DNA from: an uncultured Rhizobiaceae group bacterium
Lineage (GTDB): Bacteria > Pseudomonadota > Alphaproteobacteria > Rhizobiales > Rhizobiaceae
Assembly: GCA_937958815.1 (NCBI GenBank)
Contig: CALGMR010000012.1
Span: 1-64,000 of the forward strand
Length of the DNA: 64,000 nucleotides
Reading direction: 5' to 3'
Numbering within the stretch: position 1 is the first letter of the stretch; every line of letters begins with the position of its first letter. Positions 43,052-51,064 of this stretch are shown here, piece after piece. Below the pieces are notes generated by a model. The model ran no database searches. It was not told where the DNA came from and saw only the letters and a program-made list of their open reading frames with translations. Position numbers and translations under genes: made by a program.

Positions 43052-45988
43052 ATGAAACAGGGCGATCACCTCTTTCTGGTAGACGGTTCAGCGTATATTT
43101 TCCGTGCATACCATGCATTGCCACCTCTCACGCGGAAGTCGGATGGTTTGCCCATTGGCGCCGTTTCCGGTTTTTGCAACATGCTTTGGAAATTGCTGCA
43201 GGAAGCCCGCGATACAAATTTGGGTGTCGTACCGTCTCATTTTGCAGTGATTTTTGATCATTCTTCGACCACGTTTCGTAATGAGATTTATCCAGAATAC
43301 AAAGCCAATCGCGATGCGCCGCCAGAAGATCTGCGCCCACAATTTGCGATCATTCGCGAGGCGACACGCGCTTTTGATGTTCCATGCATTGAAAAAGAGG
43401 GTTTTGAAGCTGACGATTTGATTGCGACTTATGCCCGGCAAGCTTCGGAACTTGGAGCTGACGTGACGATCATCTCGTCAGACAAAGATCTGATGCAACT
43501 CGTGACACCTCAAATCATCATGTACGACACGATGAAAGACAAACGTGTCGGTGTTGATGAGGTGATCGAAAAGTTCGGGGTTGGCCCTGAAAAAATGATC
43601 GACCTCCAGTCTTTGGCGGGAGATTCTACAGATAATGTTCCTGGAGTACCGGGAATTGGGCCAAAAACTGCCGCGCAATTGCTGGACGAGTACAACACGC
43701 TGGAAGAATTGTTAGAGCGCGCTGGCGAAATCAAACAAAACAAGCGCCGCGAAAATATGATTGAATTTGCTGAACAGGCGCGCATTTCGAAAAAACTGGT
43801 CACGCTAGACCAAAACACGCCCATAGATGTTCCGCTGGAAGATATGGCGCTCACAAATCTGAATGGGCCAAAACTGATTGCTTTTCTAAAGGGTTTGGAA
43901 CTGAACACGCTTACACGCCGCGTTGCTGCGGAGACAGACACAGATGCCGCTGCCATCGATGCTGGCACGTTGGATGTTGCGGGATATGAGCAAAGAGGCC
44001 CTGACTTTGATGGCGGTTCAAACATTGCAGATGATCCTATGGATGCTGATGTTTCTCGCGAAGACGGACCTGCATTCCAACCGAAAGATTTGGTCAATGA
44101 ACGTTTGAATGCGACTGCATCGGTCAAAATTGACAATTCAAACTATGAGACGGTGCGTGATCCGGACGCACTAGATCGCTGGATCGCTCAAGCCACAGAA
44201 CTTGGAGTGGTGGCAGTGGACACCGAAACCAATTCACTGGATGCCATGCAGGCAGATTTGGTTGGTGTTTCATTGGCGATCGCCCTTGCTGATGGTTCCG
44301 TCAAAGCCTGTTACATTCCATTGCTGCATGTGACGGGAGAAGATGATTTGTTGGGCGGTGGTTTGGATCCGAACCAAATCCCAACACCCGATGCGCTAGA
44401 ACGATTGAAAGTGCTTTTGGAAGCACCCCATGTTTTGAAAATCGCTCAAAACATAAAATATGATTATCAGGTTTTGAACCGCAACGGCATCAAAATCGCG
44501 CCATACGATGACACGATGTTGCTGTCTTACGTCTTGGATGCCGGACGCACCAAACACGGCATGGACACTTTATCGGAAGCAATTTTGGGCCATACGCCCA
44601 TTCCGTATAAGGAAATTGCCGGCAGCGGTAAATCGATGGTCACATTTGACAAAGTGCCCGTTGATAAAGCCACGGCATATGCGGCGGAAGATGCCGATGT
44701 GACATTGCGTTTGTGGCAGATATTGAAAGCTCGTCTGGTCGCAGAAAAAATGACCACGGTTTACGAGCGCTTGGAACGTCCGCTGGTTGATGTGATTTGC
44801 CGCATGGAAGCCCGTGGTATCTCTGTTGATCGCCAAATTCTGTCTCGTCTTTCAGGAGACTTCGCGCAGAAGGCGGCTGGTCTTGAAGATGAGATTTATG
44901 AACTCGCTGGCAGGAAGTTCAATGTGGGATCGCCCAAACAGTTGGGCGAGATTTTATTTGATGAAATGTCTCTTCCCGGTGGCAAGAAAACAAAAACAGG
45001 CCAATGGGCAACTGGTGCACAACAATTGGAAGATTTGGCAGCAGAAGGTCACGAACTGCCGCGCAAGATCGTAGATTGGCGACAATTGTCAAAATTGAAA
45101 TCCACCTACACGGATGCATTGCCGGGCTATATCAATCCGCAGACTAAGCGTGTTCACACGTCTTATTCGATGGCATCTACATCTACAGGTCGATTGTCGT
45201 CTTCCGAGCCCAATTTACAAAACATTCCAATCCGCACTGAAGAAGGCCGTAAAATCAGAACGGCTTTCGTGGCCGAAAAAGGCAACAAATTGGTCAGCGC
45301 CGATTACAGCCAAATCGAATTGCGGGTTTTGGCCCATGTGGCCGATATAGGTCAGTTGAAACAAGCTTTTGCAGATGGCATCGATATTCATGCGATGACG
45401 GCTAGCGAAATGTTCAATGTGCCAGTCAAAGATATGGACCCAATGATCCGCCGTCAGGCAAAGGCGATCAACTTCGGCATCATCTACGGCATTTCTGCGT
45501 TCGGCTTGGCGAATAATTTGGGCATCGCACGGTCCGAAGCAAGTGACTACATAAAGATGTATTTCGAACGCTTTCCTGGCATCAAAGCCTATATGGATGA
45601 AACCAAGGCGTTTGCCCGAGAACACGGATATGTGGAAACAATCTTTGGTCGCAAAGCTCATTACCCCGATATGAAGTCAAGCAATCCGCAAATGAGAGCG
45701 TTTCAAGAGCGCGCTGCCATCAATGCGCCTATCCAAGGTTCTGCCGCTGATATTATTCGCCGCGCTATGGTGCAAATGGAGCCAGCATTGGATGCTGCCA
45801 AACTTTCCGCCAAAATGTTGCTTCAAGTCCATGATGAATTGATTTTCGAGGTGTCCGAAGACGAAGTGGACCAAACCATTGATCTTGTAAAGCAGGTGAT
45901 GGTCGATGCACCTATGCCTGCATTGAGCCTATCGGTTCCTCTGCAAGTGGATGCGCAGGCCGCAGATAACTGGGACGAAGCCCACTAG
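43052..45988 (+). CDS. polA: DNA polymerase I
   Basis: A 978-residue repair and Okazaki-processing polymerase. The 5'-3' exonuclease spans about residues 1-290 (DGSAYIFRAYHALPP, SSDKDLMQL, GIGPKTAAQLL). A linker rich in Asp/Ala follows. The 3'-5' proofreading domain keeps its acidic residues (VAVDTETNSLD, NIKYDYQVL, YAAEDADVTL). Polymerase motifs are SADYSQIELRVLAHVA (A), RRQAKAINFGIIYGIS (B) and LLQVHDELIFEV (C). All three activities appear intact. A bulged hairpin (42979-43009) lies in the leader. Confidence 0.98.
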   Translation: MKQGDHLFLVDGSAYIFRAYHALPPLTRKSDGLPIGAVSGFCNMLWKLLQEARDTNLGVVPSHFAVIFDHSSTTFRNEIYPEYKANRDAPPEDLRPQFAIIREATRAFDVPCIEKEGFEADDLIATYARQASELGADVTIISSDKDLMQLVTPQIIMYDTMKDKRVGVDEVIEKFGVGPEKMIDLQSLAGDSTDNVPGVPGIGPKTAAQLLDEYNTLEELLERAGEIKQNKRRENMIEFAEQARISKKLVTLDQNTPIDVPLEDMALTNLNGPKLIAFLKGLELNTLTRRVAAETDTDAAAIDAGTLDVAGYEQRGPDFDGGSNIADDPMDADVSREDGPAFQPKDLVNERLNATASVKIDNSNYETVRDPDALDRWIAQATELGVVAVDTETNSLDAMQADLVGVSLAIALADGSVKACYIPLLHVTGEDDLLGGGLDPNQIPTPDALERLKVLLEAPHVLKIAQNIKYDYQVLNRNGIKIAPYDDTMLLSYVLDAGRTKHGMDTLSEAILGHTPIPYKEIAGSGKSMVTFDKVPVDKATAYAAEDADVTLRLWQILKARLVAEKMTTVYERLERPLVDVICRMEARGISVDRQILSRLSGDFAQKAAGLEDEIYELAGRKFNVGSPKQLGEILFDEMSLPGGKKTKTGQWATGAQQLEDLAAEGHELPRKIVDWRQLSKLKSTYTDALPGYINPQTKRVHTSYSMASTSTGRLSSSEPNLQNIPIRTEEGRKIRTAFVAEKGNKLVSADYSQIELRVLAHVADIGQLKQAFADGIDIHAMTASEMFNVPVKDMDPMIRRQAKAINFGIIYGISAFGLANNLGIARSEASDYIKMYFERFPGIKAYMDETKAFAREHGYVETIFGRKAHYPDMKSSNPQMRAFQERAAINAPIQGSAADIIRRAMVQMEPALDAAKLSAKMLLQVHDELIFEVSEDEVDQTIDLVKQVMVDAPMPALSLSVPLQVDAQAADNWDEAH

Positions 45989-46879: not shown

Positions 46880-47245
46880 ATGACAAGATTCATGAACAAA
46901 CACATTCACGCATATTTAGATTACCCTGTTGGGCTCGGACTTATTCTCATGCCAATGCTTCTTAACATTGGGTCCACCAATCAGCTTGCGTTCTGGCTTT
47001 CTGTTGCGACAGGTTTTGCAGCACTGCTTTTGACATTCTTGACTGACCACCACTTGGGGGTGATGAAAGTTCTGCCATACAAACTGCACCTTGCTGTCGA
47101 TTTCCTTGTTGGAGTTACATTCTTACTTGCTCCGCTTGCTTTGGGATTGTCAGGCTTGGATGCCGCCTATTTCTGGGTACTTGGAGCAGTCGTGGTTGTT
47201 GTGGTCACGCTCGATAAATCCCAGCCTGAACCTCAAATCGCGTAA
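46880..47245 (+). CDS. Small four-helix membrane protein
   Basis: A 121-residue protein with four predicted transmembrane helices: around YPVGLGLILMPMLLN, LAFWLSVATGFAALLLTFL, LAVDFLVGVTFLLAPLAL and AAYFWVLGAVVVVVVTL. It resembles the SPW/VitK-like small membrane proteins, but no diagnostic motif is certain. The ATG with AAAGGA upstream is chosen; an earlier ATG 23 codons away lacks one. A leader hairpin GGGAAG/CTTCCC (46834-46852) precedes it. It follows the DM13 gene and is closed by the next terminator. Confidence 0.75.
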   Translation: MTRFMNKHIHAYLDYPVGLGLILMPMLLNIGSTNQLAFWLSVATGFAALLLTFLTDHHLGVMKVLPYKLHLAVDFLVGVTFLLAPLALGLSGLDAAYFWVLGAVVVVVVTLDKSQPEPQIA

Positions 47246-47270: not shown

Positions 47271-47302
47271 AAACGCCATTGCCCCTCCCTGCAATGGCGT
47301 TT
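47271..47302 (+). terminator. Intrinsic terminator of the DM13/membrane-protein unit
   Basis: A perfect 12-base stem, AAACGCCATTGC (47271-47282) with GCAATGGCGTTT (47291-47302), and an eight-base loop. The 3' arm ends in a T-run. It lies 26 bases after the membrane-protein stop codon. Confidence 0.85.
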
Positions 47303-47390: not shown

Positions 47391-47410
47391 TGTGTGCGTA
47401 AATGCACACA
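47391..47410. promoter_or_regulatory. CRP/FNR-spaced palindrome ahead of the second small-RNA candidate
   Basis: TGTGTGCGTAAATGCACACA has seven-base inverted arms around a six-base centre. The inner TGTG-N8-CACA (47393-47408) has the half-site spacing of CRP-family operators. Its centre (47400.5) is about 41 bases before a start near 47442, the class II activator position. A -10-like CTATAC (47423-47428) or CATATA (47430-47435) follows, and no good -35 is present, as expected for an activator-dependent promoter. Confidence 0.5.
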
Positions 47411-47440
47411 ATTATGATTTGGCTATACCCATATAGGGAT

Positions 47441-47592
47441 TGAGCAGCCAACTCATGTCGTTTCTCCCAACGACACAGAACTTGAACATTGCTTTGATCA
47501 GTTGCACTTCCCCCTCTCGCAATGATCGCAGAAAAAGCAGTGTTCGTGTGCCCCGGTTTTGGATCCCTCTCCAAACCGGGGCTATTTTTTTC
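47441..47592 (+). ncRNA. Candidate AbcR-like trans-acting small RNA
   Basis: No gene is credible here, yet a strong plus-strand terminator closes the segment. Hairpin 1 is TGTCGTT-TCTCCC-AACGACA (47456-47475), with TCTCCC in the loop. Hairpin 2 is GATCA(g)TTGC / GCAATGATC (47496-47527), nine pairs with one bulged base and a 13-base C/U-rich loop. The terminator is GCCCCGGTTT/AAACCGGGGC (47550-47582) followed by TATTTTTTT. The pattern of two exposed anti-Shine-Dalgarno loops plus a terminator is that of AbcR/alpha-r15 and related rhizobial RNAs. The preceding operon already has its own terminator. Exact ends and family are inferred. Confidence 0.65.
47550..47591 (+). terminator. Intrinsic terminator of the second small-RNA candidate
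   Basis: GCCCCGGTTT pairs with AAACCGGGGC, with an inner TGGA/TCCA-type extension, then a T-run. The tail lies antisense to the last codons of pdeM. It does not work for pdeM, whose strand has no U-run after the stem. Confidence 0.85.
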
Positions 47593-48397
47593 TCAGCTCA
47601 CTGGCAGGAATGCGATAGATCTGGTTGTCGCCTCTCATCAATGCATGAAACGCTTTGGCTTCGAACAGATTTTCAAACGCTTTATCAAACACATTGAGAC
47701 CACCCGTGTAAGCGCCAAAACTCGGCATAATCATGCGTCTTTTATCTCCAGCAAAGCAGGACCGGCTGACACGTCTGCCACGGCGCAAAAGCAAAGCCTT
47801 TGGGTGAAGATGCCCAGATATTTCGCCATTTTCGCTGTCTTCTTTGGGTTCGTGCAACAAAACGAGGTTTCCATCGCGCAGACACTCAACCACATCTCCA
47901 CCCAAACCCACGGGCGGTGTTGGGTCGTGATTGCCCGTAATCCAGACCCAGTCTCTATTGCGCATCAATAATTTGAGCGTTTCCAGATTTTCAATGCTCA
48001 ACCGTTCTGAGGCTTGAGCATCGTGGAATGAATCGCCAAGAGCGATCACACGTCTGGGTTGCCATTTATCCAAACACTGAGAAAAACGGCGTAAAGTGGC
48101 TGTGGTGTCGTATGGGGGGATTAACATGCCACGCCGCGCGAAACTTGATCCCTTCTCTAAATGAAGATCAGCCACCAGCAATGTGTCTTCTGCAGGCCAA
48201 TAGGCAACCCCGCTTGCGTCCGTCACCAATTCAACACCGTTTACAGCATGAATGCACGTCCCCGCGTAATCATGGCGATCGTCTTGTTGAGGCGCAAATG
48301 AGAATTCTTCCTGTAATTGCGCCATAAGAATGTCGTCGTCCAAGGGTTCGGTATTGGTTGGAGTGTTGGACGAAACAGGGTCTGTCGAATCACTCAT
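47582..48397 (-). CDS. pdeM: Ligase-associated DNA-repair phosphoesterase PdeM
   Basis: A 271-residue metallophosphoesterase. Metal-binding motifs are LLVADLHLEKGSSF, ALGDSFHD, ITGNHDP and ISGHLHPKAL. The family (ligase-associated endonuclease PdeM) usually sits with a large DEXH helicase and often an ATP-dependent ligase. An N-terminal extension of about 45 residues, rich in Asp/Glu/Thr, precedes the catalytic domain; an ATG at 48325 would remove half of it. It follows the helicase by 11 bases. No ligase or exonuclease gene lies beside the pair here. Confidence 0.9.
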   Translation of the reverse strand: MSDSTDPVSSNTPTNTEPLDDDILMAQLQEEFSFAPQQDDRHDYAGTCIHAVNGVELVTDASGVAYWPAEDTLLVADLHLEKGSSFARRGMLIPPYDTTATLRRFSQCLDKWQPRRVIALGDSFHDAQASERLSIENLETLKLLMRNRDWVWITGNHDPTPPVGLGGDVVECLRDGNLVLLHEPKEDSENGEISGHLHPKALLLRRGRRVSRSCFAGDKRRMIMPSFGAYTGGLNVFDKAFENLFEAKAFHALMRGDNQIYRIPASELRKK

Positions 48398-48408
48398 TGT
48401 TACCCACT

Positions 48409-50991
48409 TTACACAGTCATCGCATCGTTGATGAGATTTTCAGCGGCCTCTGCCAACAAACTTTCATTGGCCTCGCCAGGAACCGACTCGCGTCCAATTT
48501 CAAGCATGATAGGCACAGCCAATGGAGAAACTTGTTCGAGGTCTTTGTGAACAATTTGTCCCTTGGCACGCGCCAATAAATCACCAACCCGATGAATGTC
48601 CAGCAAACCTGATGCGGCGTCTTCTCGAGTCGCTTGCATAAGAATGTGATCAGGTTCGTGTTCGCGCAACACATCATAGATCAGGTCGGTGGAAACAGTC
48701 ACTTGCCGCCCGCTCTTTTCTTTTCCCGGATGGTTTTTCTCAATAAGCCCCGCAATCAAGGCGCAGTGACGAAATGTTCGTTTCAGCATGAATGAATCCT
48801 GCATCCATGTTTCCAGATCGTCTCCCAACATGTCTTCTTCAAACAATCCATCAAGGGAAAGCGAACCATCGGCGATCTTCGCACCCATGTCGTCCAAACC
48901 CCAAACACAAATGGAATAATCAGTAGCTACAAAACCTGTGGGTCGCGCCCGTGCGCGCTCCAGACGTTTCGTTAACAACATGCCCAAGGTTTGGTGCGCG
49001 ATCCGACCTTCAAATGTATAGGCAACCAGATAGAATTTATCGCCACGCGGAAACGTCTCCACCAAAACTTGATCTTTCTTCGGTAGAACAGATTTCTTAC
49101 CCTGAACATTCAACCAATCAGCCACTTGTTTTGGTAGGTTTGAACGTCGTTTTGGATCCGCAATCATGTCGCGAATATGATCGGCCAGATATGTGGTCAG
49201 TGGAAATTTTGAACCCGCATACATAGGCACCATAGGGTCTTTGGAAACGGCTGGCGTGACAATGGCTTCGTTCTCTCGGATGCCTTCAAAACGCACAATT
49301 TGGCCACCAAACATAAACGTGTCGCCGTAGACCATTTGCTCCAGAAAATACTCTTCCAGTTTGCCGAGCATACGGCCACCGCGCGTGGTTGCCGCCAATC
49401 CCTTGCCGTCACGCTTGGCATATTTCAACAAACGCACATTGAGTGAGGGCGCTTCATAAATTGTGCCAGTGTTCATACGGTATTGTTGGGCAAAACGGGG
49501 ATGGGTGAGGCGCCAGTTTCCGTCCTCGGTTTTTTTGATTTTTGCATGACGTTCATAAGTTTTAAGGGCGTAGCCGCCTGTCGCCACAAAATGCACGCAC
49601 CGTTCAAACGTATCCCAGTCCAATGAAGCGTAAGGTGTTGCGGAAATAATTTCCGCATATAGATCGTCTTCATTAAATGGCTCAGCTACGGCCATGCCCA
49701 GAATATGTTGGCACAGAACATCCAAAGCACCTTCGCGCAAAGGTGGCGTGTCTTGATGTCCCAGATAGTTTGCATCCAGCGCTGCTTGGCATTCCATGAC
49801 TTCAAAACGGTTGGCGGGCACCAACACAGCCAAAGAGGGTTCATCCATACGGTGGTTGGAGCGACCTATGCGTTGCGCCAAGCGACTTGCCCCTTTAGGC
49901 GCACCAATGTGAACCACCAGATCAACATCACCCCAGTCAATACCAAGATCAAGAGTTGATGTGGCCACAACCGCCCGCAGCGCATTGGCGGCCATAGCGG
50001 CTTCCACTTTGCGCCGTTGGCCCACATCCAAAGAGCCGTGGTGAAGTGCAATGGGAAGATTGTCTTCATTGATCCGCCACAAATTTTGAAACAGAAATTC
50101 TGCTTGGCTACGCGTATTCACAAACAAAATCGATGTGTGGTGCTTCTTGATCGTTTCATACACCTCGCCCACTGCATGACGTGCAGAATGGCCCGACCAA
50201 GGCAGGCGCTCTTGAGAATCCAGAATCTGAATATTGGGTTTCGCACCACCTTCTACAACAATTAGCCCCGCTTCGTGGCTGTTCAACCCGTCTCGATTTT
50301 GTCCCACGAGCCAACGGCACAGTTCAGACGGATTGGAGACCGTAGCTGAAAGGCCGATTGTCTGAAGGCCAGGGCGCAGTTTTCGCAGGCGCGCCAAACC
50401 AAGCGCAAGCAGATGACCACGTTTGGACGTAACCAAAGAGTGCAACTCATCAAAAACCACATAGCGTAGGTCTTGGAAAAAATGGCCCGCATCTTTGTGC
50501 GCGATCAACAATGCCAATTGTTCTGGTGTAGTGAGCAAAATATCTGGCGGTTTTTGTTTTTGCCGTTGGCGGCGGTGTGTGGGTGTGTCGCCTGTGCGCG
50601 TCTCAACAGTGATTGCCAAACCCATTTCGTCAATAGGCGTTTCCAGGTTGCGTTTAATGTCGACGGCCAATGCCTTGAGTGGAGAAATATAGAGCGTGTG
50701 TATGCCATCACCACGAGTGTCGTTTGTTTTGGCGGCTCCTGGTTTTCGCTTGGCACGGGTGGTAAGATCGTAAAGCGCAGGTAAAAACCCAGCCAGCGTT
50801 TTGCCTGCCCCAGTGGGCGCAATCAACAATGTCGAATCACCTTGTTGCGAACGTGCAAGCAGTTTCAGTTGATGCGCTCTCGGCTGCCACTTTTTTCTTT
50901 CAAACCAATCTTCGAAAACTGTTGACAATAAAGCACTTAGGGGCATTTCACCCGTTGTTTGCTTTTCCGTTATGCCTGTTCCCATTGCCAT
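48409..50991 (-). CDS. Ligase-associated DEXH-box helicase (Lhr-like)
   Basis: An 860-residue superfamily 2 helicase of the Lhr-Core type. Walker A is LLIAPTGAGKTLAGFLPAL, then the Ia region TLYISPLKALAVDIKRNLE, DEXH motif VFDELHSL, SAT motif GLSATVSN and motif VI QRIGRSNHR. The conserved DUF-type C-terminal third ends in the acidic AENLINDAMTV. It acts with PdeM in DNA repair. Several ATGs are possible at the start; I use MAMGTGITEK (50991). It is divergent from the RNase T2 gene, leaving a gap of about 70 bases for both promoters. Confidence 0.94.
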   Translation of the reverse strand: MAMGTGITEKQTTGEMPLSALLSTVFEDWFERKKWQPRAHQLKLLARSQQGDSTLLIAPTGAGKTLAGFLPALYDLTTRAKRKPGAAKTNDTRGDGIHTLYISPLKALAVDIKRNLETPIDEMGLAITVETRTGDTPTHRRQRQKQKPPDILLTTPEQLALLIAHKDAGHFFQDLRYVVFDELHSLVTSKRGHLLALGLARLRKLRPGLQTIGLSATVSNPSELCRWLVGQNRDGLNSHEAGLIVVEGGAKPNIQILDSQERLPWSGHSARHAVGEVYETIKKHHTSILFVNTRSQAEFLFQNLWRINEDNLPIALHHGSLDVGQRRKVEAAMAANALRAVVATSTLDLGIDWGDVDLVVHIGAPKGASRLAQRIGRSNHRMDEPSLAVLVPANRFEVMECQAALDANYLGHQDTPPLREGALDVLCQHILGMAVAEPFNEDDLYAEIISATPYASLDWDTFERCVHFVATGGYALKTYERHAKIKKTEDGNWRLTHPRFAQQYRMNTGTIYEAPSLNVRLLKYAKRDGKGLAATTRGGRMLGKLEEYFLEQMVYGDTFMFGGQIVRFEGIRENEAIVTPAVSKDPMVPMYAGSKFPLTTYLADHIRDMIADPKRRSNLPKQVADWLNVQGKKSVLPKKDQVLVETFPRGDKFYLVAYTFEGRIAHQTLGMLLTKRLERARARPTGFVATDYSICVWGLDDMGAKIADGSLSLDGLFEEDMLGDDLETWMQDSFMLKRTFRHCALIAGLIEKNHPGKEKSGRQVTVSTDLIYDVLREHEPDHILMQATREDAASGLLDIHRVGDLLARAKGQIVHKDLEQVSPLAVPIMLEIGRESVPGEANESLLAEAAENLINDAMTV

Positions 50992-51064
50992 GGGCCTAAA
51001 GTAAGATGTTGAAACGTAATTGCCCACCAGTATTTTAAACGTGTGGCACTGTGCCATTGAGGAT

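Follow-up and report, generated by a model that had tools for sequence, protein, structure and literature searches.

A block of about 200 bp on the plus strand of the 64 000-nucleotide stretch of DNA analysed here (the window), at positions 47391–47591, is very probably a real small RNA (sRNA) gene, as judged from its sequence. The reading that we favour, with a probability of roughly 0.6, is that of a lineage-specific, activator-driven trans-acting sRNA that represses transporter mRNAs. In this reading, the stand-alone gene would specify a trans-acting regulatory RNA of ∼151 nt, transcribed from about position 47441 by a promoter that apparently lacks a −35 box and would be switched by a dimeric regulator bound to a palindrome near −41, the position of a class II activator. 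The three C-rich loops of the RNA (UCUCCC, ACUUCCCCCUCUC and UCCCUC) would pair with G-rich Shine–Dalgarno (SD) regions, GGGAGR above all, in mRNAs for periplasmic ABC-transport proteins; translation of the paired mRNAs would be blocked and the mRNAs destabilised, and Hfq would probably assist at the U-tail. No prior description of this sRNA was found: it has no match in Rfam, and the literature search covered known relatives.

Genetic context and promoter region

The block lies between an SPW-domain gene and the convergent pdeM gene (Table 1), with polA and a DM13 gene farther upstream. All the elements listed in the original prediction, namely the palindrome, a −10-like element, two hairpins exposing TCTCCC and ACTTCCCCCTCTC and a terminator with a seven-T tail, are present and in the order proposed. 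The fold analysed here adds a third C-rich loop, TCCCTC, which sits inside the terminator. The 12-pair hairpin that had been noticed behind the upstream gene is perfect and separates the SPW gene from the sRNA gene; a simple terminator scan finds it terminator-like on the minus strand only. In S. meliloti, the portions of the sources available (PMC2780559, PMC2573895) place the sRNA SmrC7 5′ of polA, in the interval that separates this gene from SMc02851. SmrC7 was rejected as the same locus because the block described here is downstream of polA.

Table 1. Features of the sRNA locus and of its surroundings (window coordinates)
Feature	Position	Strand	Remarks
DNA polymerase I gene polA	43052–45988		Farther upstream of the block
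SPW-domain gene	46880–47245		Upstream of the block; 31.6 bits, cut-off 31.5
12-pair hairpin	47271–47302	+	12 perfect pairs; after the SPW gene; sequence runs on as TGCGTTCTT
Palindrome TGTGTGC-GTAAAT-GCACACA	47391–47410		Probable operator; 20 bp, perfect; centre 47400.5
−10 element CCATAT	47429–47434	+	Within CCATATAGG; 18 bp after the palindrome; no recognisable −35
sRNA	47441–47591	+	∼151 nt; start predicted; fold, covariation, covariance-model match
SL1	47456–47475	+	7-bp stem; loop TCTCCC (47463–47468), anti-SD motif 1; CCTCCC in both relatives
SL2	47480–47549	+	Long bulged hairpin; loop ACTTCCCCCTCTC (47506–47518), anti-SD motif 2
SL3, Rho-independent terminator	47550–47591	+	Loop TCCCTC (47564–47569); T7 at 47585–47591
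pdeM	47582–48397	−	TIGR04123, 227.8 bits; convergent; conserved side of the locus
lhr-type ligase-associated DEXH helicase gene	48409–51057	−	TIGR04121, 1093.1 bits; next conserved neighbour

When CCATAT is taken as the −10 element, transcription is predicted to start at about position 47441, and the palindrome is then centred at about −41. No −35 hexamer was recognised, and a simple scan gave no sigma-70-type promoter at the locus. The combination of a promoter without a −35 box and a palindrome near −41 suggests, from the sequence, an activator of class II geometry; it is conceivable that the palindrome-binding regulator acts as a repressor instead. The core recognised by CRP is TGTGA-N6-TCACA. 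The operator had been described as CRP-spaced, and its TGTG-N8-CACA spacing and its centre do fit a class II activator, but the core does not follow, as the palindrome reads TGTGC-N6-GCACA; CRP is therefore not supported as the regulator. According to the parts available of the relevant papers, the alphaproteobacterial −10 element is CTATAT, close to the CCATAT found here, and LsrB drives AbcR1 from a site between −61 and −49 (PMC8844928) and NfeR1 from a TGCA-N6-GCAT motif at about −72 to −57 (PMC10746234, PMC7143759). Neither the position nor the sequence of the palindrome supports LsrB as the regulator here.

In the 64 kb, the palindrome is its own sole match at up to two mismatches (itself with 0), with 0.49 matches expected by chance. 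Counted over whole genomes at the same stringency, it is overall not commoner than a backwards control (forward 8, 11 and 8, control 8, 3 and 12, in the window's own genome G000 and in its relatives G008 and G012, respectively). A sharper 18-mer derived from G012, from which the window palindrome differs at three positions, has 16 matches in 15 genomes vs 4 for its control, but a single repeated element with the ending CACGG accounts for 5 of the 16. Beyond the window, the own genome has two sites of the operator form (GTGTGCCARAACGCACAC), at L078 (G000:C4:133300-137300) and L079 (G000:C16:31900-35900). There they precede two genes for similar-looking small secreted proteins rich in Arg, Gly and His; the palindrome regulator may therefore have other targets. 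Both genes also share a leader element, CATCTYTAGGAGGCAGCAA, that ends ∼70–90 nt before the start codon. Neither product has a match in NCBIfam or an above-cut-off match in Pfam; for the L079 protein, an RXLR match in Pfam reaches 17.4 bits against a cut-off of 26.9 and was taken as chance. Pairing of the sRNA with the L079 leader gave unremarkable values. Another repeated element, GTGTGCCAAAACGCACGG, has three copies in G009 and two in G011 (loci L082, L088, L089, L093 and L094), and four of these five copies precede a possible very short gene starting ATGTTTGCA.

RNA structure and conservation in relatives

The 152-nt RNA 47441–47592 folds at −55.5 kcal/mol compared with −33.2 kcal/mol (sd 3.7) for 200 dinucleotide shuffles, none of which was as good (z −5.98). 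The C-rich motifs are predicted to be unpaired with mean probabilities of 0.85–1.00 in the window (0.87 for SL1 and 1.00 for SL2) and of 0.83–1.00 in the relatives. In the terminator, positions 47550–47559 pair with 47573–47582; a simple rule that allows loops of 3–8 missed the hairpin at 47550–47582, as its uninterrupted outer arms are 13 bases apart.

A DNA search of 61 genomes, the own genome and 60 relatives, found the element in three of them: the own genome, G012 (76% identity) and G008 (75% identity, the match covering 133 bases of the 221-base query), both relatives belonging to the same genus. In all three, the sRNA lies 3′ of, and convergent with, pdeM–lhr. pdeM itself was found in 13 of the 15 genomes of the genus, and the sRNA adjoins its 3′ end in 3 of these 13. 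The PdeM proteins of both relatives are 75–78% identical to that of the window, nine others are at 57–68%, and one 48-residue fragment at a contig end is at 81%. Each genome has a different gene upstream (SPW in the window, DUF302 in G012, Exo_endo_phos in G008), so the sRNA is neither a leader nor a 3′ untranslated region of a conserved upstream mRNA.

A covariance model (R1), built from the three homologues with the window among them, scores these at 169, 160 and 143 bits, and they are the only strong matches among the 15 genus genomes; the window match (169 bits) covers 47441–47591. Two weak matches inside the genus (E 0.16 and 0.21) were left out of the counts, and the R1 search gave no convincing copy in 12 of the 15 genomes. 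When 199 genomes of the family were searched with stricter filters, which lose some weak matches, R1 recovered the own genome, G012 and five lower matches of 16.8–31.5 bits in other genera. The best of the five, in G201 (31.5 bits, E 5.8e-6), is significant by its E-value and was dismissed on the reading of its alignment alone, which joins a GCCCCGG terminator to a poor upstream hairpin and skips SL2 almost wholly. The alignments of the other four show terminator-like or generic hairpins, and these matches were likewise rejected. No match to the sRNA was present in the plasmid collection.

Conservation across the three genomes follows the proposed elements. The palindrome is identical at 15 of 20 positions and the 40 bp upstream of it at 4 of 40; the spacer between the palindrome and CCATATAGG is identical at 4 of 18 positions and exactly 18 bp long in every case, and CCATATAGG, with the −10 element, is identical at 9 of 9. 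In a structure of 44 pairs, 96.2% of cells are paired across the three sequences. Nine pairs have changed on both sides with pairing kept, whereas shuffles averaged 3.7 (1 of 500 reached 9) and slid controls gave 0–2; these counts are small, coming from three sequences of draft genomes (the own genome 92% and G008 61% complete). Eight of the nine lie in SL2 and one in the terminator, and SL1 has none because its stem is nearly invariant. The compensatory changes proposed as a test of the stems are thus present, and the stand-alone plus-strand sRNA gene that had been predicted is kept in two relatives.

The overlap of the terminator stem with the stop codon of pdeM (47582–47584), together with an 85-codon frame that crosses the region, could also be read as the trailing part of the upstream mRNA, as coding sequence or as an antisense transcript of pdeM, with no sRNA gene at all. 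We consider this very improbable. The upstream genes differ among the three genomes and a separate hairpin follows the SPW gene; the G012 homologue has stops in all three forward frames, and the three homologues are separated by indels of 1–3 nt, G008 also being without a 5′ stretch of 13–14 nt; and the next gene downstream is transcribed in the opposite direction. At the overlap itself, the terminator and T-tract (47582–47591) encode the stop codon and the last lysine codons of pdeM in the window, and the PdeM of G012 extends three codons deeper into the stem. As for the general features of trans-acting sRNA genes, the locus has a promoter-like element, a Rho-independent terminator with a U-tract, a covarying structure and no conserved open reading frame.

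Comparison with the ar14/NfeR1 and ar15/AbcR families

Membership of the AbcR (ar15) or ar14 family, with whose models a covariance search had been proposed, was not supported. At gathering scores (40 bits for ar15, RF02345, and 58.8 bits for ar14, RF02344), Rfam gave no match in the whole window, and at E ≤ 10 neither model matched between 47240 and 47700 or at the loci of both relatives. Four local sub-threshold matches at E ≤ 10 (anti-hemB, two microRNA families and a snoRNA) were taken as chance. The anti-hemB match (RF02837; 19.7 bits, E 0.03) shares a C-rich loop and a CCCCGG terminator, but it is far below the cut-off of 49.5 bits and has three non-standard pairs in its alignment, and G012 scores 17.3 bits (E 2).

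A search of the own genome with ar15 at E ≤ 10, in which all 111 candidates were scored, gave no match at this locus. The best match elsewhere (16.7 bits, E 0.9, C11:71071) was rejected, since a terminator sits there; by reading alone, it lies between a permease-like and a binding-protein-like gene among ABC-transporter-like genes. With stricter filters, scoring at most 50 candidates per genome, ar15 was found at E ≤ 0.1 in none of the 15 genus genomes vs 19 of 22 genomes from the other genera of the family, 13 of the latter being over the cut-off; two weak family matches fit the SorX model better. AbcR has apparently been lost from the genus. By contrast, ar14 is present at E ≤ 0.1 in 14 of the 15 genus genomes, and the own copy (C5:106307, 88.2 bits) has three CUCCUCC-type loops. 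This copy (L061 808-927, G000:C5:106307-106426) begins directly behind the stop codon of a DUF1127 gene (L061 654-806), much as a product of the 3′ untranslated region of that gene would.

In the sections available of the published descriptions, AbcR1 and AbcR2 carry the anti-SD motifs aSD1 (CUCCUCCC) in the first loop and aSD2 (UUCCCCUC) between SL1 and SL2, and repress ABC-transport mRNAs (PMC8844928). The ar14 RNAs, of which S. meliloti has six copies, are described there as three-hairpin RNAs whose stems vary and whose loops all carry CCUCCUCCC, and the predicted NfeR1 targets mostly encode transport proteins (PMC10746234, PMC7143759). Over the three homologues studied here, the successive loop motifs are CCUCCC (UCUCCC in the window), UUCCCC(C)UC and CCCUC(U/A)CC.

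The order of the first two motifs recalls AbcR, with CCUCCC in the first loop of G012 and G008 (UCUCCC in the window; the full octamer CUCCUCCC is absent) followed by a UUCCCCUC-type motif that is exact in G012. SD pairing with mRNAs for substrate-binding proteins (SBPs), which we infer for the sRNA, is a further point of likeness. The motifs and the lack of ar15 matches in the 15 genus genomes could point to a strongly diverged AbcR orthologue, relocated to the pdeM locus, that stands in for the one apparently lost. Such an origin seems unlikely. The second motif occupies the loop of the long SL2 hairpin, with only a few bases linking SL1 and SL2, whereas in the AbcR RNAs described it lies between the two hairpins. 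The terminator loop here is C-rich too, the promoter is different, no LysR gene was seen among the neighbours scanned, the ar15 model matches neither here nor in the relatives, and 12 of the 15 genus genomes have no convincing copy of the sRNA.

The overall plan is that described for ar14. In the predicted folds of all three genomes, a C-rich anti-SD motif is left unpaired in each of three hairpins, whose stems vary and the last of which is the terminator. CCUCCC is retained by SL1 in two of the three genomes, and the targets are transport mRNAs in both cases, from the literature available for ar14 and as an expectation here. The sRNA might then be a degenerated extra copy of ar14, to which we give little credence. 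Loops 2 and 3 are not CCUCCUCCC, so that the three loops are not copies of one motif; the RNA has ∼151 nt vs 123 positions in the model, with a long bulged SL2; and the palindrome near −41 differs from the LsrB and NtrC sites of NfeR1, as far as these are described in the text available. The ar14 model gives nothing here at E ≤ 10 vs 88 bits elsewhere in the same genome. CcsR1, the 'conserved CCUCCUCCC motif' RNA (RF02791), likewise exposes C-rich anti-SD loops in hairpins, but it has no match at the sRNA locus and reaches 34 bits, below cut-off, at the ar14 locus of the genome.

The sRNA combines the ar14 plan with motifs recalling AbcR and belongs to neither family as these are modelled; it is conceivable that it shares with ar14 or ar15 an origin too remote to be detected. 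By analogy, and although neither Rfam model matches it, we regard it as probably a functional counterpart of NfeR1 and AbcR that is restricted to this lineage.

Complementarity to transporter mRNA leaders

Complementarity of the exposed loops to SD sequences, as proposed, was borne out, notably for the GGGAGR type, which is enriched before SBP genes. The SBP set comprised 18 of the 19 own-genome matches to PF13458, PF13416 and PF00497 (one contig-end fragment left out) and, for G012, 22 of 24 matches to the same families (two fragments left out), and the background consisted of 197 genes from the window and a further 160 kb of the own genome, from which SBP genes were not filtered out. Start codons were assigned by a simple rule; some SBP starts look wrong, and some family matches may not be ABC-transport proteins. 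Among seven patterns tried in the ribosome-binding region, GGGAGR, the complement of the SL1 motif, was present in 8 of 18 own SBP genes vs 6 of 197 background genes (Fisher p 1e-6). The shorter GGGAG occurred in 8 of 18 own SBP genes, 10 of 197 background genes and 11 of 22 SBP genes of G012, and AGGAG was not enriched (1 of 18 vs 10 of 197). When only genes with strong SD pairing were compared, GGGAG was still found in 8 of 13 SBP genes vs 10 of 51 in the background (p 0.005).

Duplex energies were lower for SBP genes, with p 7e-5 for SL1 and less so for SL2 (0.008) and SL3 (0.013). The best of the three loops separates SBP genes from the background only weakly (p 0.02); with 7 of the 18 SBP genes, pairing at least as strong is reached by roughly half of the background genes or by more. 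Moreover, the gene whose leader pairs most strongly in the sample, with the terminator loop region, is not an SBP gene but encodes an H+-pyrophosphatase. This gene (PF03030, L143 10456-12448) has in its leader GGAGAGGGA, a 9-nt perfect complement of the terminator loop region, and is on sequence grounds a candidate target of the sRNA. Because the genome also has an ar14 RNA, the GGGAGR enrichment cannot be assigned to this sRNA alone, and the signal may reflect the ar14 RNA rather than the sRNA described here.

The H+-pyrophosphatase pairing, and the fact that C-rich loops pair generically with SD sequences, would also suit an sRNA that works otherwise, for example with one loop directed at a small number of specific mRNAs, or through the sequestration of a protein. 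This seems improbable to us, given the enrichment of the SL1 complement before SBP genes and the absence of a CsrA-type GGA from the loops of SL1 and SL2. Anti-SD repression of transport mRNAs is, on the complementarity found, the somewhat likelier main job of the sRNA. We advance more tentatively, as a possibility that we would not yet favour, that the lineage, having lost AbcR, evolved a multi-loop anti-SD RNA of its own with AbcR/NfeR1-like motifs, placed at a new locus and controlled by a new palindrome-binding regulator, in a convergent reinvention of global transporter control atop an ancestral GGGAGR tag on SBP messages.

In Rhizobiales, control of ABC transporters by anti-SD RNAs is widespread, yet AbcR was detected in none of the 15 genomes of this genus. 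The locus supplies a defined promoter with a conserved operator, which offers a handle for finding its regulator. If the reading proposed here is true, a similar motif vocabulary would have appeared at another locus, in another structure and under another promoter, showing how easily such riboregulators arise, and the stable element would seem to be the GGGAGR tag on the transporter messages.
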